Shown in pieces: positions 4,037-41,093 of a DNA stretch of 41,093 nucleotides (the stretch's first letter is position 1; each line of letters begins with the position of its first letter). The notes under the pieces were generated by a model. It was not told where the DNA came from. It saw only the letters and a program-made list of their open reading frames with translations, and searched no databases. Source of the stretch: Deltaproteobacteria bacterium (lineage in GTDB: Bacteria; Myxococcota_A; Polyangia; HGW-17); assembly GCA_016937155.1 (NCBI GenBank), contig JAFGWM010000040.1, positions 213,267 to 254,359 of the forward strand, given 5' to 3'. The position numbers and the translations under genes are program-made.

Positions 4037-6781
4037 ATGAAATATTACTATTATTTATTTGTTTTTATATTAATTCAGTCTTTTGGAGTTCAGTCTCAAA
4101 CAAAAAAACCATCTAAAAAACCCACAAAAGAGGAGATTGAAAAACTCAAGAAAAGAGTTATTTATCCAAAACTTCTCAAATATATAGCCGCCAAATACCC
4201 TGAAAAAGCTGTAAAGGAAAACAGGGAGGGGACTGTTCTTCTTACTGTTTCAATTGACGAAACAGGAAAAGTTATTGGAGTTGAAGTTAAGAAATCTGCC
4301 GGAAGTGATCTGGACGAAGCCGCCAAAGAAGCTGTTATGAAATTTCTTTTTACTCCTGCATCAATTGATGGCAAGGCTATCCCCGTAAAGATTCCTCTTG
4401 CCTATCCTTTTAAACTTAGAAAATCGGATACACAACCGGTTAAAAAACCGGATGATAAAAATGCAGTGAAGGTTGATGGCAAAAAGACGGATCCCGGTAA
4501 AACACAGGATAAAAAGCCTGATCAGAATTCAAAAAATCCGGCTATTGACGGTAAAACTACTTCAACAGTAAGGAAACCGCCTGAAAAGAAAAATGAAAAC
4601 AGTGAACTGAGCGGCAGATTATGGGAAAAAGGCCGCCGATTCCGTTTGAAGAATGCTCAGGTAAGATTATGGCAAGTCAAATCTGATGGAAGTCGCCTTG
4701 AAAATCCACAGGATGTGGTTTATTCGGATAACAAGGGTTTTTTCGGTTTTAAAAATGTTCCGCCGGGTAACTATTTTATTGAAGTCATAATAGAGGGTTT
4801 TAAAACCCTAAACGATAATGTTCTGATTCTTCCATCCTCAAAAGCCAGGGTCAATCTCTATGTTGAGCGTTCAACAAAGGATGATTACTCAATTATTGTA
4901 ACAGGTAAGGCTGACAAAAAGGAAGTTGCAAGATATTCTCTGGAACTGAGTGAAGTACAGACAATTCCCGGGACCCAGGGAGATGCAATCAGAGCTATTC
5001 AGAACATGCCGGGGGTTGCCAGATCTCCTTTCAATCTTGGGTTGATTGTTGTTCGCGGAAGTGCCCCTGGTGATACCAGAGTGTTTTTTGAAGGACATGA
5101 AATTCCACAATTATTTCATTTTCTTGGTTTGACTTCTGTTTATAACAGTGATTTGCTCAAAAAAATCGATTTCATTCCGGGAAATTTCAGTGTGAGATAT
5201 GGCAGGGCAACAGGTGGTATAATTGATGTTTATACACGAAATCCAAAAAAAGACGGGTTTCATGGTTATATCGATCTTGACATCTGGGATGCCGGAGCTC
5301 TTGTGGAAGGTCCCATAGGAGATGGATCTTTTGCCATCAGTGTCAGGAGAAGCTGGATAGACAGTATTTTAAGACTGATACCGGAAGTTGGGATAGCACC
5401 GGTTTATTATGACTATCAGGGAATTTTAAGTTATCCGCTGTTTGGGGGTAATTTCAAGTTCATGGTGTTTGGAAGTGATGACAGACTCTTTTTACTTGAA
5501 GATGATTCAACACCCTACATTACAAATTTTCAGAAGGCTATCGCCATATATTCCAAACGTGATGGTAAGAATTACTTCAAGGGCAGCTTTGGAGCTGGAA
5601 TCAATGATCTCACTTTTGGTGTAGATGAGTTTAATTTTAATCTGAATTACTACAGACTCAACTGGAGGAGTGAGTATACCAGGACTTTTACAAAGGACTT
5701 AAAACTTACTGTGGGTATGGATGGCGAATTCACTGATGCTGATGTCACCCTTACCTTTGAAAACAGGGCTGCAGTTACTGATGATAATCCCACCGGACAG
5801 ACAGGATTCAACGTTAAGGATTATCTTCTGAATCAGGCTTTATGGATGGAGGCTACCTGGAAACCATTCAGCAGATTAACTCTCATTCCAGGGATAAGAA
5901 CAGATTTTCTTAAGACTGAAACATCCAGATATGTTGTTGCAGATCCCAGAATCACCGCAAAAGTAGAAGCAAAAAAGGATACTCTCTTCATCAACGCAGG
6001 TATTGGAATTTTTCATCAGGAACCTGAACTTTATCAGTTATCCCCGGAAATTTTCGGAAATCCTGATCTGAAACAGGAGAACAGTGTTCACGCAAGTCTG
6101 GGATTTTTCTGGAAGATAATGCCATCAATGACTCTGGAGATGACTGGTTTTTATAAGAATATGTGGAATCTCATTGTTGAAAATCCCAATATAACTCAGG
6201 GCGATAACTCTGTTGTTACTGATTATATGGTTAATAAAGGGATTGGAAGAGTATATGGTGGTGAGTTTTTATTCAAGAAACAGACGTCCACCACTTGTCC
6301 CCCTATCTGGGGAATGCAGAAATGTTTCGGATGGCTGAGTTATACTCTTCTGAGATCAGAGAGAAAGGATAATGATGAAGAAGGATGGAAGCTTTTCGGC
6401 TTTGATCAGACTCATATTCTTACAGCAATATTTTCCGGTATATGGAATGGTGGATGGCAGGTTGGATTCAGGTTCCGGCTATCCACAGGGATACCCATAA
6501 CTCCAATTGTTGGCGGTATCTATGATGCTGATACCGGAAGATACATCGGGGTGGAAGGTAAGCCTTATTCAGAGAGAATGCCTCTTTTCCACCAGCTTGA
6601 TTTCAGAATTGATAAAAAATTCAAGTTTAATACCTGGTCACTGACTGTGTATCTTGATATACAGAATGTCTATAACTATCAGGTAAGCGAATTTCTAACA
6701 TATAACTTTAACTACACCCAAAGAACTACAGTAGCGGGTCTTCCCATAGTTCCATCAATTGGAATAAAGGGTTCATTCTGA
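4037..6781 (+). CDS. TonB-dependent receptor with N-terminal TonB C-terminal-like domain
   Basis: The 914-residue protein starts with a signal peptide (about 1-21). Residues about 40-130 resemble the TonB C-terminal domain: a YPEKA start, EGTVLLTVSIDETGKV, and the FTPAS segment that follows the second helix. A Lys/Pro/Asp-rich linker runs to about 190. A carboxypeptidase-regulatory-like fold follows (about 190-280, with DNKGFFGFKNVPPGNY). The plug is at about 287-404 (QNMPGVAR, VVRGSAPGD, GRATGGIIDV), and a beta-barrel ends in GSF. TonB-dependent receptors import bulky substrates across the outer membrane using energy from TonB-ExbBD. A TonB-like domain on the receptor itself is unusual. The downstream lipoprotein gene begins 8 bases after the stop, so the two probably act together. 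The substrate is unknown. Confidence 0.9.
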   Translation: MKYYYYLFVFILIQSFGVQSQTKKPSKKPTKEEIEKLKKRVIYPKLLKYIAAKYPEKAVKENREGTVLLTVSIDETGKVIGVEVKKSAGSDLDEAAKEAVMKFLFTPASIDGKAIPVKIPLAYPFKLRKSDTQPVKKPDDKNAVKVDGKKTDPGKTQDKKPDQNSKNPAIDGKTTSTVRKPPEKKNENSELSGRLWEKGRRFRLKNAQVRLWQVKSDGSRLENPQDVVYSDNKGFFGFKNVPPGNYFIEVIIEGFKTLNDNVLILPSSKARVNLYVERSTKDDYSIIVTGKADKKEVARYSLELSEVQTIPGTQGDAIRAIQNMPGVARSPFNLGLIVVRGSAPGDTRVFFEGHEIPQLFHFLGLTSVYNSDLLKKIDFIPGNFSVRYGRATGGIIDVYTRNPKKDGFHGYIDLDIWDAGALVEGPIGDGSFAISVRRSWIDSILRLIPEVGIAPVYYDYQGILSYPLFGGNFKFMVFGSDDRLFLLEDDSTPYITNFQKAIAIYSKRDGKNYFKGSFGAGINDLTFGVDEFNFNLNYYRLNWRSEYTRTFTKDLKLTVGMDGEFTDADVTLTFENRAAVTDDNPTGQTGFNVKDYLLNQALWMEATWKPFSRLTLIPGIRTDFLKTETSRYVVADPRITAKVEAKKDTLFINAGIGIFHQEPELYQLSPEIFGNPDLKQENSVHASLGFFWKIMPSMTLEMTGFYKNMWNLIVENPNITQGDNSVVTDYMVNKGIGRVYGGEFLFKKQTSTTCPPIWGMQKCFGWLSYTLLRSERKDNDEEGWKLFGFDQTHILTAIFSGIWNGGWQVGFRFRLSTGIPITPIVGGIYDADTGRYIGVEGKPYSERMPLFHQLDFRIDKKFKFNTWSLTVYLDIQNVYNYQVSEFLTYNFNYTQRTTVAGLPIVPSIGIKGSF

Positions 6782-6789
6782 GGTGTAAA

Positions 6790-7743
6790 ATGAAAACAGC
6801 ACTAATATTTACAGTTATAACCATTTTATTTACATTCGGCTGTTCTGAGGATTTCCCTGATGCCGGTGAACTGGGAAATGAAAACCAGATTCTGGCAATC
6901 AAAACTGAACCTCCTGAGGTTGGTATTGGGGATGAGACTCTTATTACTCCACTTGTTCACTGGCCACAGGGGGATGAAAATTATCTCTGGTTTATCTGTC
7001 TTCCTGATAAAAAAGACAAAACAGATAATCTCAGTACATGTATAATTGATATGCTTGAAGAACAGAATGGACAGGTGGATGATTGTGGAGTCAATCCGGA
7101 TGACAGATTGTGTATACTTTCCCATGAAAAAGAGCCTTCATACACAGTTCCTGACATTTTATGGTTTTCTGCATCCACTACCACTCAGTATTTTTATGCC
7201 ATGATGATTGCATCCGATCAGGGGGATCCTTTAACCGAATGCGACTCTGCATGGAGGGAAATGATACCTGATTCAAAATGTCTTCTTTCAGGGAAAAGGA
7301 TTGTTTATAATCCCGGTGTTATAACCAATCGAAATCCGGAAATAAACGGACTTGTTTTCGGAGAAGAAACAGCAGATCCCACAGGTATTTATACAATTTC
7401 AGGTGGTAAAGCTGTTTTTCATGTTGATTTTGATCTTTCCACAGTTGATGAGTTTATTCCTGATGTGGAAAATACTTTGAGACTACAGGTTTCATTTTTT
7501 ACAACATGTGGCACTATTGATCCCTGGAGAGAAAGTATTGTCTGTTCTTCTACAGGTGATCCTGAAACTGCGGGATGTGAGGCGCTGGAGATGGAGCTTA
7601 AGGCAGATGTGAGCGGTGAATGTGTTATTCACACAGTGTTGATTGATAAGAACTATTTTGGAGAGGATGCTGATGTGATTGAGGGAACTGATCCGTATGT
7701 TCCCGGATTAACATGGCTTTCCCAGAGGATTCTGATTCAGTGA
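6790..7743 (+). CDS. Lipoprotein co-transcribed with TonB-dependent receptor
   Basis: A 317-residue protein with a lipoprotein signal: a hydrophobic stretch ends in FTFGC, placing the lipidated Cys at residue 18. The mature part holds several Cys residues (for example SKCLL, CSSTGD, GCEALE) that suggest disulfides. No known domain is evident. A GAGGTG Shine-Dalgarno overlaps the receptor stop codon, five bases before the ATG, which indicates translational coupling. By analogy with surface lipoproteins encoded beside TonB-dependent receptors it may bind or deliver the receptor's substrate, but this rests on position alone. Confidence 0.8.
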   Translation: MKTALIFTVITILFTFGCSEDFPDAGELGNENQILAIKTEPPEVGIGDETLITPLVHWPQGDENYLWFICLPDKKDKTDNLSTCIIDMLEEQNGQVDDCGVNPDDRLCILSHEKEPSYTVPDILWFSASTTTQYFYAMMIASDQGDPLTECDSAWREMIPDSKCLLSGKRIVYNPGVITNRNPEINGLVFGEETADPTGIYTISGGKAVFHVDFDLSTVDEFIPDVENTLRLQVSFFTTCGTIDPWRESIVCSSTGDPETAGCEALEMELKADVSGECVIHTVLIDKNYFGEDADVIEGTDPYVPGLTWLSQRILIQ

Positions 7744-8429: not shown

Positions 8430-11159
8430 TTATATAGATAACCTGATACCACTGTAAAAACAGCGACCCTCCAGAGGTCCCCATATATAAACCACATCCA
8501 GTGGGGTGGGGGCTCCACCTGCAGCGCCTGTTGAAGAAGGAAACATTAGCGGGCCTTCAATATCACTCTGATGATAATCCAGAATATTATTAATTCCGAA
8601 ATAGAAAGTTCCCTTTTTGCTGAAGTTATATTCTAAAACGATATTTCCGGTTCCCCACCATGGTGATTTCGAAAGCTTTGGGGAAGATGTGTCAGCTCCG
8701 ATAGTGGGATCGAGGAGTTGATCAGCAGATATTCCCTGAACAGGATTGTAGGCATATCCATAGACTTTTCTGAGATCAACCGGTGCCAGAAGCTTTGAGG
8801 TGAAATTAAGAGCAAAAGGTCCCTTTTTAAGAAAAACACCAAGGGTGAATTGCTGAGATGGAGGAGCACTCTGATTTACATTTGACGGATCCTTATAGTT
8901 GTAATGACCGTACCCCGCCTGAATTTTCATGAAAGAAAAAGGTTTACCCTGAATCTGGGCTTCAAAACTCACAACTTCAAGAGGTGTATCAACATTGAAT
9001 ACTCTTAAAAGTGCTCCATCATTAAGAGATTCCATGGCAATTGCATTTTCCACCCTGTTATAGGCTCCTTCAACTGTAAAGGTCCAGTTACGGATTCTGG
9101 AGATAACAACGCTTGCGTTTACACCCTTTGATGTTTCAGGATTATCTGCAGCCATTTCAACAGTATATCCGCCGGGATGAACACCGTGACTGTATTCATA
9201 AAAGGTGGTTGGTGCTCTGAAAGCTGTTCCGGTACTCGTTCTTATATTCACATCTTTGAATATCTCATACTTTAGGGCTATTCTTGGGGTTATAACTTTA
9301 CCGTAGGTGTTATGGTAATCGAAACGAATTCCATGCAGGAATTCAAATGAATTTTTATTTTTAAGGGATCCTTCGAGAAAAAATCCTGTAAGTTTATGAC
9401 TGTAATCAGCATTTGCCAGATTTTCTTCAAGATTTTCCAGCCTGAAACTTCCTCCCCCTGTGACAGAATACCATGATGAGGGTTTCATAATAAAGAACGG
9501 GTTGAAATAAAACAGATTCTGCACAGCGCGGTAATACTCACCTTCGTAATCACTATCCTGGAAGTGATACACAAATGCTGATTTAAGTCCGGCAGCAAAC
9601 TGATTTCGATTGTAGGTCAGAGTGAAGGCATTTTCAATTCTTCGGGACATTATTGATTCACTGATGCTTCTCATTCCATATGATGTGGATGGATCATAAT
9701 CGGTGATAACACCAAGAAAATCAGATGTTCCACCACCCTGTCTTGTTTCATTCAGGATTCCGGAACGGAATTTTAATTCAAGAGATTCAATAGGTGTATA
9801 ATGAAATGCCAATCCTGCACTTGATCTCTGCATCCAGGCTTTTTCTGTAACACCATCTCCATCACGATCAACTTTTCCGGTATTTTCGAAACTTGCATAA
9901 CTCAATATGCCGAACCAGTCGCCGTTTATAATAACATCATTTTTAAATCCGGTGGATACTGCACTAAGATAGTATTCATCATATGTACCCAGTCTGAATT
10001 CCACAGAGGTGATTCTTTTGGATGGTTTTTTTGTGATTACATTTACAATTCCTCCAATTGCGTCTGTTCCATAAAGTACACTAGAAGCCCCTTTGACTAT
10101 TTCAATTTTTCCTATCGAAGCAGCGGGAATACCAGCTAGACCATATGTGGAACCCAGACTGGAATAAAGTGGCATTCCATCAATAGTGTAAAGAGTATAC
10201 CTTCCAGGAAGACCACTGAGTCTGATGGATGTGGCCCCACAGATACTGCAGCCATTATCAACACTTACACCCGGTTCCATATCCAGAGCAGTTGTAAGAT
10301 TTACTGCTCCTTTTCTTGTGATCTGTTTGGATGAAATTACTTCTGTTTTAACTGGAACATCCTTGATTTTCCTTGCACTAAGAGTTCCTGTAACTACCAC
10401 TGTGTCATCATTTGAATCGTCAACAAGGAGTTTTTGTTTTATCTTTTTTGCAGCTGAAGCAGTTTTTTTCCTTAACTTAGGTTCTTTTTTATCAATAATT
10501 TTTACCGGAACAGGGTTTTTTCCCGCCTTTAACTCAGGGAGTTTTTTCTTTACGGGCTCAACAGGTTTAATTTTCGGGTTCTGTTTCGAAGGTTTACCAG
10601 GTGATTTATCCTTATTATTATCAACTATTTTAACTGGTTCAGGTATTTTTTCCGGTTGGTTTTTCCGGAGAACTTCTGTTTTATTTTCATTTTCACCGTT
10701 TTTCTTATTTTGTTTTGCTGAGTCCTTTACCGGTTCGGATTTTTTTTTCTTTTTGACACTAATTTTGAAGGGAATTTTGACAGGGATTTTTACAACAACC
10801 GGGATATTCTGGATTGACGCAGGTGAAAACTCGAATTTTTTTGCCGCCGTTATAGCGGATTTATCAAAATTTATACCTCCCGATTTGCCTATTTCAACGG
10901 ATATTACTTTTCCATCCTTACCAATTGTAAGATAAAGAAGTACCGTGCTTTCAACATTATTTCTGTATTCAGTAGGGGGATATTCAGGAGCAAAGTACTT
11001 TTTCAGGACAGGATGAACTATTTTCTTCTTCAGATTTTTCAGTTCCTCTTTTTTAGGAGGAATTGAACTTTTATTATGATTGCACCCTGAGTCTTTATCA
11101 GGACAGTTTTTATTTGGTACTTCAGAGAATAAAATACCAATCAGTAAAACATAAAGCAC
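8430..11159 (-). CDS. TonB-dependent receptor with N-terminal TonB C-terminal-like domain and long Lys/Pro linker
   Basis: A 909-residue protein on the minus strand, starting with GTG at 11159; AGGAG lies six bases upstream. After a signal peptide (about 1-15), residues about 40-135 form a second TonB C-terminal-like domain (FAPEYPPTEY, STVLLYLTIGKDGKV, FSPASIQ). A linker of about 110 residues very rich in Lys and Pro follows, as in the periplasm-spanning part of TonB. The plug then begins VVVTGTLSARK and contains RLSGLPGRYTLYTIDGMPLY and GGIVNVITKKP, resembling vitamin B12/siderophore or colicin receptor plugs. The remainder is a beta-barrel with RAPTTFYEYSHG. It lacks the carboxypeptidase-like module of the receptor at 4037, so it is a divergent paralogue sharing the same fusion. 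The ligand is unknown. Confidence 0.9.
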   Translation of the reverse strand: MLYVLLIGILFSEVPNKNCPDKDSGCNHNKSSIPPKKEELKNLKKKIVHPVLKKYFAPEYPPTEYRNNVESTVLLYLTIGKDGKVISVEIGKSGGINFDKSAITAAKKFEFSPASIQNIPVVVKIPVKIPFKISVKKKKKSEPVKDSAKQNKKNGENENKTEVLRKNQPEKIPEPVKIVDNNKDKSPGKPSKQNPKIKPVEPVKKKLPELKAGKNPVPVKIIDKKEPKLRKKTASAAKKIKQKLLVDDSNDDTVVVTGTLSARKIKDVPVKTEVISSKQITRKGAVNLTTALDMEPGVSVDNGCSICGATSIRLSGLPGRYTLYTIDGMPLYSSLGSTYGLAGIPAASIGKIEIVKGASSVLYGTDAIGGIVNVITKKPSKRITSVEFRLGTYDEYYLSAVSTGFKNDVIINGDWFGILSYASFENTGKVDRDGDGVTEKAWMQRSSAGLAFHYTPIESLELKFRSGILNETRQGGGTSDFLGVITDYDPSTSYGMRSISESIMSRRIENAFTLTYNRNQFAAGLKSAFVYHFQDSDYEGEYYRAVQNLFYFNPFFIMKPSSWYSVTGGGSFRLENLEENLANADYSHKLTGFFLEGSLKNKNSFEFLHGIRFDYHNTYGKVITPRIALKYEIFKDVNIRTSTGTAFRAPTTFYEYSHGVHPGGYTVEMAADNPETSKGVNASVVISRIRNWTFTVEGAYNRVENAIAMESLNDGALLRVFNVDTPLEVVSFEAQIQGKPFSFMKIQAGYGHYNYKDPSNVNQSAPPSQQFTLGVFLKKGPFALNFTSKLLAPVDLRKVYGYAYNPVQGISADQLLDPTIGADTSSPKLSKSPWWGTGNIVLEYNFSKKGTFYFGINNILDYHQSDIEGPLMFPSSTGAAGGAPTPLDVVYIWGPLEGRCFYSGIRLSI

Positions 11160-12455: not shown

Positions 12456-13736
12456 ATGACGGGATTACAGCCATTTTTTTATGGATTGGGGGCAGGAGTT
12501 GGAATTTATATTCTCCTCCGGATTGTTATCAGCTACTTCTTCTATATAGGGAAGCCAAACGAAGTCCTTATTTTCTCAGGGCGCAGTCACAGAGGGCCTG
12601 ATGGAGTTGTTAAAGGTTACCGGTATGTTATTGGTGGCTGGGCATTCCGCTTCCCCATCATTGAAGAAGTTGCGAGAATGGATCTTACAGAAATCCCAGT
12701 AAGTGTGAGTGTTACAAAAGCTTATTCAAAGGGTGGTATTCCAATTGATGTTACCGCTGTGGCAAATATAAAAATCAGTTCCAGACCAAACATCATGGAT
12801 GCGGCCATTGAGCATTTTCTCGGTCAGAGTAAGGAACAGATTGCCCATGTTGCAAAGGAAACACTTGAAGGACATCTTCGCGGTGTTTTGGCAACTATGA
12901 CGCCTGAGGAGATAAACGAGGAAAGAAATTCCTTTAGTACTGGTGTTGAAAAGGATGTTGTGCCGGATTTCATGAAACTGGGACTTCATCTTGATACCTT
13001 TAATATTCAGTCCATTTCTGATAATGAGGAATATCTTATCAGTGTTGGTAAAAAGAGAATTGAGGAAATCAAGAAGCTTGCAAATGTGGCTGAATCCGAT
13101 GCTAATAAACTTGCAAAAAACGTTGAAGAAGAGGCAAAGGGTATTGCAAAAGCCACCAATGAAGAAACAGATATGGTGGTGAGGCAGGCTCAGAATGAAC
13201 TTGATGCTTTTGTTAATAACGAACTGGCAAAAGTCACTTCAGAAGAGGAAAGAACCAAAGTGAGTGCTTTCCAGGCCAGGGCTGAGGCTGAACAGCAGCT
13301 CCAGCGTATCAGAACAGAGCTTGAAGGAAAAAGACGTGAAGTTGAAGAAGTGCTTCCTGCAGAAATTCAGAAAAAAGCCAGTGAAATTCTTGCTGTCGGT
13401 GAAGCTATTTATACACAAAAACGAGGTGAAGCAACTGCCAAGGTTCTTCAGATGACAAATGAAGTCTGGAAAGAGGCAGGACCGATTGCAAAGGATATCT
13501 ACATACTTCAGCAGATAGAATCCATTCTGAATCAGGTGGTTGAAAGTGTTAAAACTGTTCAGATGGGTGAAGTTAATATGCTTGATACAGGTGATGGTGA
13601 GACTATTCAGAGCCATGTTCAGGCTTATCCTGCGATGATTACAGCGGTGCTGCAGGAAATCAAGAAGATCACCGGAATTGATGTACCAGGGGCACTCAGT
13701 CCATCAGGTAGTAATATTTCAAGGCCAAGGATTTGA
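12456..13736 (+). CDS. Flotillin-like SPFH-domain protein (first of two)
   Basis: A 426-residue protein with one N-terminal membrane segment (about 6-28). It is followed by an SPFH domain (about 30-200: PNEVLIFSGR, GWAFRFPIIEEV, ATMTPEEINEER). A long Ala/Glu-rich coiled coil follows (about 205-345), as in flotillins/YuaG. The C-terminal part is short. Flotillins oligomerise on the inner membrane and organise microdomains. The ATG follows the NfeD stop by 13 bases with AAAGGAA in between, so the genes are one operon. It is clearly paralogous to the next gene. Confidence 0.88.
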   Translation: MTGLQPFFYGLGAGVGIYILLRIVISYFFYIGKPNEVLIFSGRSHRGPDGVVKGYRYVIGGWAFRFPIIEEVARMDLTEIPVSVSVTKAYSKGGIPIDVTAVANIKISSRPNIMDAAIEHFLGQSKEQIAHVAKETLEGHLRGVLATMTPEEINEERNSFSTGVEKDVVPDFMKLGLHLDTFNIQSISDNEEYLISVGKKRIEEIKKLANVAESDANKLAKNVEEEAKGIAKATNEETDMVVRQAQNELDAFVNNELAKVTSEEERTKVSAFQARAEAEQQLQRIRTELEGKRREVEEVLPAEIQKKASEILAVGEAIYTQKRGEATAKVLQMTNEVWKEAGPIAKDIYILQQIESILNQVVESVKTVQMGEVNMLDTGDGETIQSHVQAYPAMITAVLQEIKKITGIDVPGALSPSGSNISRPRI

Positions 13737-13749
13737 GGGAGGAATTGAT

Positions 13750-14994
13750 ATGTTTACATTTTTAGGCGGAGTTATTGCAATAATCGTGCTTTTGAGCATT
13801 GTAATCATAAGAAACGTCATCCATATTTGTCCACCCAATAAGGTCCTTGTATTTTCAGGGCGTTATAGATGGATTAGATACAGAATGAGTGATGGAAGTG
13901 AGTCAAGGGATCGTATTGGATACCGCATAATCAAGGGCGGCAGAGGTTTCAGATGGCCACTTTTTGAAACAGTTGATTCCATGGATCTCACAAATATGAT
14001 AATTGAAGTTCGTGTGGAAGAGGCATTTGCAAAGGGAGCAATTCCTCTCAGTGTTCACGGTGTTGCCAACGTAAAAATAGCAGGTGAGGAACCAACAATC
14101 AGAAATGCAATCGAAAGATTTCTTGGTAAACCCAGAGCTGAAATAATTAGAATTGCACAGGAAACCCTTGAAGGAAATCTTCGTGGTGTTTTAGCCACTA
14201 TGACTCCCGAACAGGTTAATGAAGACAGAATTGCATTTCTTAAGGGTCTTCAGAAAGAAGCTGATGAGGATTTGGCAAGGCTGGGTCTGATGCTTGATAC
14301 TCTTAAAATCCAGAATGTTTCCGACAAGGTTCAGTATCTTGACAGTATAGGGCGGATCAGAACTAGTGAAGTAAAAAGAGATGCCCGTATAGCAACAGCG
14401 AAGAACTGGGCAGAAGCTGCTGTTAGAGATGCTACAAACAGAAAAGAAAAGGAGCTTCTCAAAATTAAGGTTAACCGCAAAACTGCAGAAGCTGAGTTTG
14501 CAAAGAGATTCAAGGATGCAATAACAAAAAGAGAAGCGGTTATAGCTGAAGAAAAAGGTAAAATTGCAGCGATGGTTGCCAGAGCAGAAGCTGAGCTTGT
14601 TTTACAGGAAGCTAGATATGAACAGATGAAACATCAGTTGGAAGCTGACATCGTCAAACCTGCTTTGGCAAGTACAAATGCAGATATGGCGAAAGCTGAA
14701 GGTAGTGTAGCTCATCAGATTGAAGAGGGTAGAGCAAAAGCAAATGCTTTAAGGGCAATTGTACACACCTGGAAAGAATCAGGAGCTGCGGGCAGAGAGA
14801 TATTTGTTTTACAGAAACTTGATTCAATCCTACCTAATATTCTTGAGGTTCTTCATAATGTTCAGATCGACAGAATTACATATCTTCCGGGAAGTGATAC
14901 TGGAACAGGCCAGAAAAGTGCCAGGCTCGTTGAGGAAATCAAAGCGGCAACAGGAGTTGATCTAGCAAAAATAGGCAAAAAGTTTGAATCCTGA
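13750..14994 (+). CDS. Flotillin-like SPFH-domain protein (second of two)
   Basis: A 414-residue protein. The ATG at 13750 is preceded by AGGGAGG at 13736-13742, which overlaps the stop of the previous gene; longer in-frame starts inside that gene lack such a site. It has an N-terminal membrane segment (about 4-22) and an SPFH domain with PNKVLVFSGR, GGRGFRWPLFETV and RGVLATMTPEQVNEDR. An Ala/Glu/Lys-rich coiled coil and an LPNILEVLHNVQ tail follow. The conserved tract around ETLEGNLRGVLATMTPE is nearly identical in its upstream paralogue, so the pair arose by duplication. The two may form a hetero-oligomer with the NfeD protein. Confidence 0.88.
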   Translation: MFTFLGGVIAIIVLLSIVIIRNVIHICPPNKVLVFSGRYRWIRYRMSDGSESRDRIGYRIIKGGRGFRWPLFETVDSMDLTNMIIEVRVEEAFAKGAIPLSVHGVANVKIAGEEPTIRNAIERFLGKPRAEIIRIAQETLEGNLRGVLATMTPEQVNEDRIAFLKGLQKEADEDLARLGLMLDTLKIQNVSDKVQYLDSIGRIRTSEVKRDARIATAKNWAEAAVRDATNRKEKELLKIKVNRKTAEAEFAKRFKDAITKREAVIAEEKGKIAAMVARAEAELVLQEARYEQMKHQLEADIVKPALASTNADMAKAEGSVAHQIEEGRAKANALRAIVHTWKESGAAGREIFVLQKLDSILPNILEVLHNVQIDRITYLPGSDTGTGQKSARLVEEIKAATGVDLAKIGKKFES

Positions 14995-30507: not shown

Positions 30508-31242
30508 TTAATTCATTGGGGCGGTCATAGGAACCGGTTTCGGAGCAGGTTTTTTAACTGCGGGTTTTGCAGCCACCATCGGAGCGGTTTTTTTAACAAC
30601 CGGAGTCTTAGCAGCGGTTGCCGGTTTTTTGGTAATTTTAACTTCGGGATTTGCAACAGGAACAGTTGGTTTAACAGCAGCCATTGCAGGAACGCCTTTT
30701 GAAGGTACTGCAACTGGTGGAGCTTTGACCTCAGTTTTAACCGGAGTGGCATCCTTTGTCGCAGGAGCTTTGACCTCAGTTTTAACCGGAGTGGCATCCT
30801 TTGTCGCAGGAGCCTTTACTGTACCAGTTTTAACCGGAGTTGCATCTTTTGTAACTGGAACCTTCACATCGGTTTTTACTGAAGTGGCATCGCCAGTGGC
30901 ATTGGTCTGGGTCAGTGGTGTTGAATCAGTGGTATCCTTTTCATCAAGAATCTGTTCAATTGATGGAACAGGCTTACTGGATTTTTTCAAACGATCACTA
31001 CCACTTCTGGAAGAAGCCCATGAAAGTCCGAGGCTGGAAATCATGAAAATACTGGCTACAAAAGTGGTCATTCTTGTGAGAAAGTTACCAGCGGTCTGAC
31101 TTGAAAACATGCTCTGTGAAGTACTTCCACCGAATGCGATACCCATTCCGCCGCCTTTTCCGGCCTGAAGCAGAACGAGTAAAATAAGACTCAGACACAA
31201 AATAACGTGTAAAACTTTAATAATTGAGAAAAAAAGCAGCAT
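30508..31242 (-). CDS. secG: Preprotein translocase subunit SecG with long Lys/Ala/Pro-rich tail
   Basis: The first about 85 residues are a normal SecG: a membrane helix (LHVILCLSLILLVLLQ), the GKGGGMGIAFGG loop, SSQTAGNFLTRMT and a second helix. SecG assists SecYE in protein export. A tail of about 160 residues follows, rich in Lys, Ala, Pro, Val and Thr, with repeats of about 15 residues (PATKDATPVKTEVKA) encoded by near-identical 45-bp units. As SecG's C-terminus is normally periplasmic, the tail should lie outside the inner membrane. AAGGAGG lies nine bases before the ATG. Most SecG proteins are 70-130 residues, so 244 is long. Confidence 0.9.
   Translation of the reverse strand: MLLFFSIIKVLHVILCLSLILLVLLQAGKGGGMGIAFGGSTSQSMFSSQTAGNFLTRMTTFVASIFMISSLGLSWASSRSGSDRLKKSSKPVPSIEQILDEKDTTDSTPLTQTNATGDATSVKTDVKVPVTKDATPVKTGTVKAPATKDATPVKTEVKAPATKDATPVKTEVKAPPVAVPSKGVPAMAAVKPTVPVANPEVKITKKPATAAKTPVVKKTAPMVAAKPAVKKPAPKPVPMTAPMN
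30721..30810. repeat. Two tandem identical 45-bp repeats inside secG
   Basis: The 45-bp unit at 30721-30765 is repeated without change at 30766-30810, and a diverged, slightly longer copy follows. Each encodes a 15-residue unit of the SecG tail. Because the unit is a multiple of three, copy number can change without breaking the frame. Confidence 0.85.
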
Positions 31243-39792: not shown

Positions 39793-39923
39793 TTTAATAA
39801 TATTTTAGCATCATGGTTATAGCTAGGTTTAAGATGACAACTACCCAGTCACTCCCATAACTGCCGATCTTCACACATAAATCACTGACAGCAGGAAAAA
39901 TAATAAAACCTAGTTAGTCTCTT

Positions 39924-41093
39924 TTTTCAATGGTGCCACTTCTCTTTGGAAGTGGAAATGAGGCGGGGATCAGATAGGTCAGTCAGCCTGTGCCAGCTTC
40001 AATGGTGCCACTTCTCTTTGGAAGTGGAAATGTAGCTATCCCGGTAGATATCTACAACATCGTCCACAGCTTCAATGGGGCCACTTCTCTTTGGAAGTGG
40101 AAATATATTTCCGGTGTGTCTCCGGATTCCATATAACTATGGCTTCAATGGGGCCACTTCTCTTTAGAAGTGGAAATTTTAGGCAGTGGAGAGCCGTTAG
40201 ACAGCGACACAAACGCTTCAATGGGGCCACTTCTCTTTGGAAGTGGAAATTCTCGCCTATTCGGTCTTCCGCCTCGTCCCCATCGCTTCAATGGGGCCAC
40301 TTCTCTTTGGAAGTGGAAATATAGTTCAAATGATGGGGCGAACTTGCAAGTATCGTTGCTTCAATGGGGCCACTTCTCTTTGGAAGTGGAAATTGCAGAT
40401 ATTTCATTTATATTCCCAGATAGCACAGCGGCTTCAATGGGGCCACTTCTCTTTGGAAGTGGAAATAGCCATTGGAAACGCTCAATTAATAACCTTTCAA
40501 ACGCTTCAATGGGGCCACTTCTCTTTGGAAGTGGAAATGCATTGTCCTTAATGGCAGTAATTACCCGCTATGCTTGCTTCAATGGGGCCACTTCTCTTTG
40601 GAAGTGGAAATCAGAGCGGATCTGAACGTAAGAAACTGCCTAGGACGCTTCAATGGGGCCACTTCTCTTTGGAAGTGGAAATACAATCCAATTGTCTGAA
40701 GTTCCCCCGGCTGCGGTGCTTCAATGGGGCCACTTCTCTTTGGAAGTGGAAATGTGTTTTCAGCTAATGGTAAGTCAATAATGGCAATTCGCTTCAATGG
40801 GGCCACTTCTCTTTGGAAGTGGAAATTTCAAAACGGAGAGGAGGCGCATCAGGAGCGCTTGGCTTCAATGGGGCCACTTCTCTTTGGAAGTGGAAATTTT
40901 TAAGAAGGTGAAAAAATGAACTCCAGATTTGAGAGCTTCAATGGGGCCACTTCTCTTTGGAAGTGGAAATGGATACAAGACCACGAACTGATTGACGATA
41001 TTGAGAGCTTCAATGGGGCCACTTCTCTTTGGAAGTGGAAATATAGACTATGGACGCACCACCATGGCGGAATTATTGATGCTTCAATGGGGC
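39924..41093 (-). CRISPR. CRISPR array: 16 complete 36-bp repeats plus one cut by the window edge, 16 spacers
   Basis: Repeats start at 39924, 39996, 40069, 40142, 40215, 40285, 40358, 40431, 40503, 40576, 40647, 40718, 40791, 40862, 40935, 41007 and 41081 (the last only 13 bases). Spacers are 34-38 bp and all differ. The plus-strand repeat opens GCTTCAATGGGG, has the stem CCACTTC / GAAGTGG around TCTTTG, and ends GGAAAT. Repeat 1 has three changes (TTTTCAAT at its start and a T at position 11), repeat 2 has that same T, and repeat 4 has one A. Degeneracy at the left marks the old, leader-distal end. On the minus strand the repeat ends ATTGAAGC, close to the classic ATTGAAAC handle of types I and III. 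Transcription is therefore probably leftward. No cas gene is in the window, so the type is unassigned. Confidence 0.97.

Follow-up and report, generated by a model that had tools for sequence, protein, structure and literature searches.

A TonB C-terminal domain at the periplasmic N-terminus of myxococcal TonB-dependent receptors: a possible docking or selectivity module

Results

Two receptors in the window begin with a TonB C-terminal domain

The window (the whole stretch of 41,093 nucleotides analysed here) contains, at 4037–6781 on the forward strand, an open reading frame of 914 amino acids that Pfam, AlphaFold and Foldseek identify as a TonB-dependent receptor with an N-terminal TonB C-terminal (TonB_C) domain. 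Its parts, all read on the forward strand, are a probable signal sequence (aa 1–21, 4037–4099; recognised by eye from a hydrophobic start ending in VQSQ), the TonB_C domain (aa 44–126, 4166–4414; pLDDT 84–97), a disordered Lys/Pro-rich linker of 61 residues (aa 127–187, 4415–4597; 28% K+R, 12% P, pLDDT mostly below 50), a carboxypeptidase-regulatory (transthyretin-like) domain (aa 188–277, 4598–4867), the TonB box DYSIIVTG (aa 283–290, 4883–4906; DDYSIIVTG with the residue before it) immediately N-terminal to the plug, the plug itself (about aa 301–400, 4937–5236) and, in the AlphaFold model, a beta-barrel (aa 401–914, 5237–6778).

For the first domain, PF03544 (TonB_C) matches aa 53–126 at 62.3 bits against a cut-off of 24.6 (E 6e-17, Pfam), and TIGR01352 (tonB_Cterm) concurs. 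This agrees with an earlier note on this DNA, which had placed a TonB C-terminal-like domain at residues of about 40–130 and had named STN or another receptor N-terminal domain as the alternative; STN (PF07660) gave no Pfam match in this receptor at E 0.01. The plug profile (PF07715, aa 317–394, E 1.1e-4) scored 23.1 bits in hmmscan, 0.8 below its cut-off, and 27.4 bits in the genome search, above it. The carboxypeptidase-regulatory profile (PF13620, aa 224–275) stayed below its cut-off (21.9 against 32.3 bits), and the domain was also assigned by fold comparison; each of these two profiles matches 21 of 24 homologues. Inner-membrane transducers have an anchor helix, a linker and a terminal TonB domain, and this is not the layout found here, as TonB_C is N-terminal and a plug and barrel follow. 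That an extra domain stands at the periplasmic N-terminus of an outer-membrane receptor is thus firm as anatomy; its function is what we infer below.

A second such receptor of 909 amino acids (8430–11159, reverse strand; ORF, Pfam, NCBIfam) is not mentioned in the earlier note and is convergent with the first. Its TonB_C domain (aa 58–133, 10761–10988; PF03544 E 8.2e-12) is followed by a Lys/Pro-rich linker of 117 residues (aa 134–250, 10410–10760; 31% K+R, 11% P), the TonB box DDTVVVTG (10386–10409) just N-terminal to a plug match at aa 265–371, the plug and the barrel. A lipoprotein gene without any Pfam match (6790–7743, forward strand) starts 8 bases 3' of the first receptor.

Other features of the window were recorded in passing. 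Two adjoining proteins at 12456–14994 resemble SPFH/flotillin-type coiled-coil proteins, by eye only, and 30508–31242 (reverse strand) encodes a SecG (PF03840, E 2.1e-20) whose long Lys/Pro/Ala/Thr tail is repetitive, in units of about 15 amino acids. Towards the window end lies a CRISPR-like array (39919–41049; 16 copies of the 36-nt repeat GCTTCAATGGGGCCACTTCTCTTTGGAAGTGGAAAT at a spacing of 70–73 bases), and the open reading frames listed within it are artefacts.

TonB_C was found in three of the eight receptors that the plug profile detects in this genome, the third lying elsewhere (L039). The genome also has an ExbB-ExbD pair (C76) and a TonB-like protein of 327 amino acids (C61) with a weak TonB_C match (26.5 bits). 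Its protein C14 we take to be TolA-like, and further TonB_C proteins to be GltG/GltJ-like, also by domain content. A short fragment with TonB_C and linker adjoins an integrase-like gene (L040:4874-5323, reverse strand) and is probably a decayed receptor copy.

The domain has the fold of receptor-bound TonB

The full-length AlphaFold model (mean pLDDT 88; alignment of 77 sequences) has FecA, PqqU and PfeA as its best Foldseek matches (E about 1e-22). TonB_C is modelled confidently at about aa 41–126 and superposes on TonB in its complexes with FoxA (6i97_D, Z 12.6, rmsd 1.7 over 89 residues) and BtuB (2gsk_B, Z 11.3, rmsd 1.6). The second domain resembles transthyretin-like carboxypeptidase domains (5aq0_B, Z 13.4) and the N-terminal extension (NTE) of SusCdex (9hfj, Z 11.5), which, with the profile matches among homologues, bears out the carboxypeptidase-regulatory fold that the earlier note had also proposed. 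The model shows disorder in the linker and no structure in the TonB box (pLDDT about 57). A model of the fragment aa 28–300, with the plug omitted, again gave two separate domains (pTM 0.46), and in neither model does the TonB box form a strand or pair with TonB_C in cis, as judged from secondary structure and confidence only. The note had hoped for both a significant TonB_C match and a predicted contact of the domain with the box; the match was obtained and the contact was not, the box being unstructured and the linker disordered.

The layout is widespread and under constraint

Every one of the 59 sampled relatives has a homologue. The identified relatives are Myxococcota (Myxococcus, Corallococcus, Sorangium, Minicystis, Nannocystis and Polyangium), and some of the metagenome-assembled genomes are labelled just Deltaproteobacteria, Proteobacteria or bacterium. 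TonB_C is present in 24/24 members of the first homologue alignment and at 69 of 80 Myxococcota loci (at least 3 of the 11 loci without it end at contig edges), and the layout is conserved over much of the phylum. In the phylum sample, families f33 and f45 have TonB_C in frames of 719–1148 amino acids and 19 genomes of five others (f36, f47, f32, f44, f48) have no TonB_C frame of at least 700, so the fusion looks lineage-restricted.

Only the plug is better conserved than TonB_C, which has a median pairwise identity of 0.39 (plug 0.50, barrel 0.34, carboxypeptidase-regulatory domain 0.27). Among closer pairs its dN/dS was 0.09–0.19 in five and 0.33–0.44 in two; between the window receptor and that of L009 its synonymous sites are saturated, at an amino-acid identity of 0.80. 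Purifying selection and conservation together mean that the domain is maintained. The TonB box is likewise retained across homologues (consensus YxTVVxG), and a flexible stretch separates it from TonB_C in nearly all members. The length of the linker varies from 2 to 109 amino acids (median 19), mostly without Lys enrichment; the Lys/Pro-rich character that the earlier note had described is therefore true of both window receptors and not of the linkers in general. One relative (L144:1010-4741) has two tandem TonB_C domains ahead of its carboxypeptidase-regulatory domain.

As for how the domain arose, we considered whether the TonB domain of each operon had recently been copied into its receptor and set this aside, since the domain tree, at weak support, separates most receptor domains from TonB domains. 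The tree is compatible with one origin of the receptor domains and with several.

Ton genes and a lipoprotein gene accompany many of the receptors

At 20 loci exbB and tonB lie beside the receptor (directly upstream on the same strand at 19, downstream at 1), and 17 of these loci yielded exbD as well. Two genomes from the same family as the window (L224, L225) and one from the same order (L226) have the order exbB-exbD-tonB-receptor. No exbB-exbD-tonB set adjoins the receptors in the window's genome or in its sister genome (L234). Because separate tonB genes adjoin many such receptors, we rejected, as a general reading, the idea that TonB_C replaces TonB. At one locus of the same order (L238:3019-7978) the genes run exbB-exbD-receptor-lipoprotein; this receptor bears TonB_C, and no tonB was detected in the interval that separates it from exbD.

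Order-level relatives conserve the lipoprotein gene together with the receptor. The receptor-lipoprotein order is kept in L225 (where the lipoprotein gene comes next after the receptor), L234, L235 and L238, and in L234 the receptor, the lipoprotein and a second TonB_C-bearing receptor are successive on one strand. The lipoprotein at 6790–7743 is a possible partner of the receptor.

Many neighbouring TonBs carry an additional segment

Many TonBs encoded beside TonB_C receptors have a conserved segment of the type GLSxxSFxxGxGLSVxxGNT ahead of their C-terminal domain; in those of L103, L109, L122, L174 and L205 this Gly/Ser-rich stretch (GLSxxS...GLSVxxGNT type) follows the Pro-rich linker and precedes the C-terminal domain. 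Outside the training set, its profile scored at least 5 bits at 10 of 14 loci. It matched none of the TonBs at five loci whose receptor is without TonB_C, the 10/14 and 0/5 being counts in which the relatedness of loci is uncontrolled (at a sixth such locus no TonB was found), and none of 16 TonBs from families in which TonB_C receptors were not seen among the sampled genomes. The association may come from ancestry alone, since TonB subtypes differ. Loosely similar segments also occur in TonBs away from receptors, and the profile misses variants. At L228, a segment-bearing TonB stands beside a receptor without detected TonB_C, whose start may be cut off. The TonB-like proteins of the window's own genome do not have the segment.

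Net charge was also compared. The receptor TonB_C domains are mostly acidic, with a median net charge of -4. In 19/20 operons the TonB has a C-terminal domain that is more positive than the receptor TonB_C. As a control, the receptors' carboxypeptidase-regulatory domains were found to be similarly acidic; the difference therefore does not show charge complementarity between the two domains, and that idea is weakened.

Discussion

The receptor combines features of several known systems. Its first domain has the family (PF03544) and fold of the TonB C-terminal domain, as bound to FoxA (6i97) or BtuB (2gsk), but in TonB this is the C-terminus of an inner-membrane protein and here it is the N-terminus of an outer-membrane receptor. 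Like the STN transducer receptors (FecA, FpvA, FoxA), it has a small extra periplasmic domain ahead of the TonB box, although this has the TonB_C fold and the Pfam scan gave no match to STN. With the Oar- and SusC-type receptors it shares a carboxypeptidase-regulatory domain just ahead of the TonB box, whose fold matches the SusCdex NTE; unlike them, it adds TonB_C in front. No TonB_C was found in six large Oar-like receptors (1079–1178 amino acids) of this phylum that adjoin Ton genes, whose kinship with Oar is judged by size and setting only. A further resemblance is to the model of a myxobacterial receptor, the myxochelin siderophore receptor MxcH (NCBIfam NF038079), positions 2–107 of which match residues 44–157 here. 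At 79 bits (cut-off 925) the receptor is not MxcH, and it has the added carboxypeptidase-regulatory domain.

The MxcH model appears to contain an N-terminal TonB_C domain, so the architecture is already present in databases. In papers the layout is apparently undescribed: a survey of 34,893 TonB-dependent transporters recognised five N-terminal architectures, composed of CarboxypepD_reg, STN and AMIN domains, none with TonB_C (PMC6434023), and our search of the openly accessible literature turned up no description of a receptor that bears TonB_C. The survey paper also applied a bacterial two-hybrid assay to Oar and TonB1.

We tentatively favour, at a probability of roughly 0.38, the reading that these proteins are ordinary energised importers and that the additional periplasmic domain is a docking or selectivity module for their Ton machinery. 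TonB_C does not replace the transducer, because the receptor's TonB box is still in place and a separate TonB usually accompanies the receptor. Judging from its anatomy, the receptor would draw its energy from the inner membrane by way of its own TonB box, and the flexibly tethered TonB_C would act in the periplasm, most likely touching the partner TonB at its C-terminal domain or linker. The correct TonB among several could in this way be kept near the TonB box before it grips and pulls. Genomes of Myxococcota have several TonB_C proteins each, which would make a selectivity device useful, and the authors of work on SusC suggest that its carboxypeptidase-type N-terminal extension might confer specificity among TonB orthologues (PMC7782687); these two points make docking or selectivity the most economical reading. 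Against it, in the window's own genome exbB-exbD-tonB genes are absent from the neighbourhood of these receptors, and the TonB-like C61 is only a weak match to TonB_C.

The other readings differ in what TonB_C would hold. It may cap its own receptor, its third strand pairing with the TonB box in cis and hiding the box until ligand binds. The close superposition on receptor-bound TonB (rmsd 1.7 to 6i97_D and 1.6 to 2gsk_B) and the presence of a TonB box, with a flexible stretch between it and the domain in nearly all members, fit such a cap, but the box is unstructured and of low confidence in both models; this is not decisive, as AlphaFold can miss weak strand additions, and we regard the cap as rather doubtful. 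In a more specific form of contact with TonB, each partner would hold the other, the receptor TonB_C gripping a dedicated TonB by a strand of that protein's periplasmic linker while TonB grips the TonB box; the segment found in neighbouring TonBs is a candidate for that strand, and we consider this two-handed coupling distinctly unlikely.

Binding to peptidoglycan is reported for TonB C-terminal domains, and TonB_C and a Lys-rich linker might instead fasten the receptor to the cell wall. Both window receptors have Lys/Pro-rich linkers; across homologues, though, the linker is variable in charge and in length (2–109 amino acids) and the receptor TonB_C is mostly acidic, which leaves an anchor improbable. 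We hold it just as improbable that TonB_C works in trans, gripping a TonB box that belongs to a receptor nearby or to another outer-membrane protein such as the lipoprotein, so that clusters form: two TonB_C receptors lie close together in the window and in the sister genome and the adjacent lipoprotein gene is co-conserved, but many loci have a single such receptor. Finally, a TonB domain captured by fusion could now be a leftover without a specific role. The loci without TonB_C would accord with this, some of them being cut by contig ends, yet the domain is under purifying selection and more conserved than the barrel, and we think a leftover very unlikely.

The finding bears on two open questions, how the appropriate TonB comes to a given receptor out of many and how the TonB box stays ready. 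In these bacteria the receptor itself bears the domain by which TonB grips a receptor, and it does so in much of the phylum, under selection and often beside a complete Ton system.
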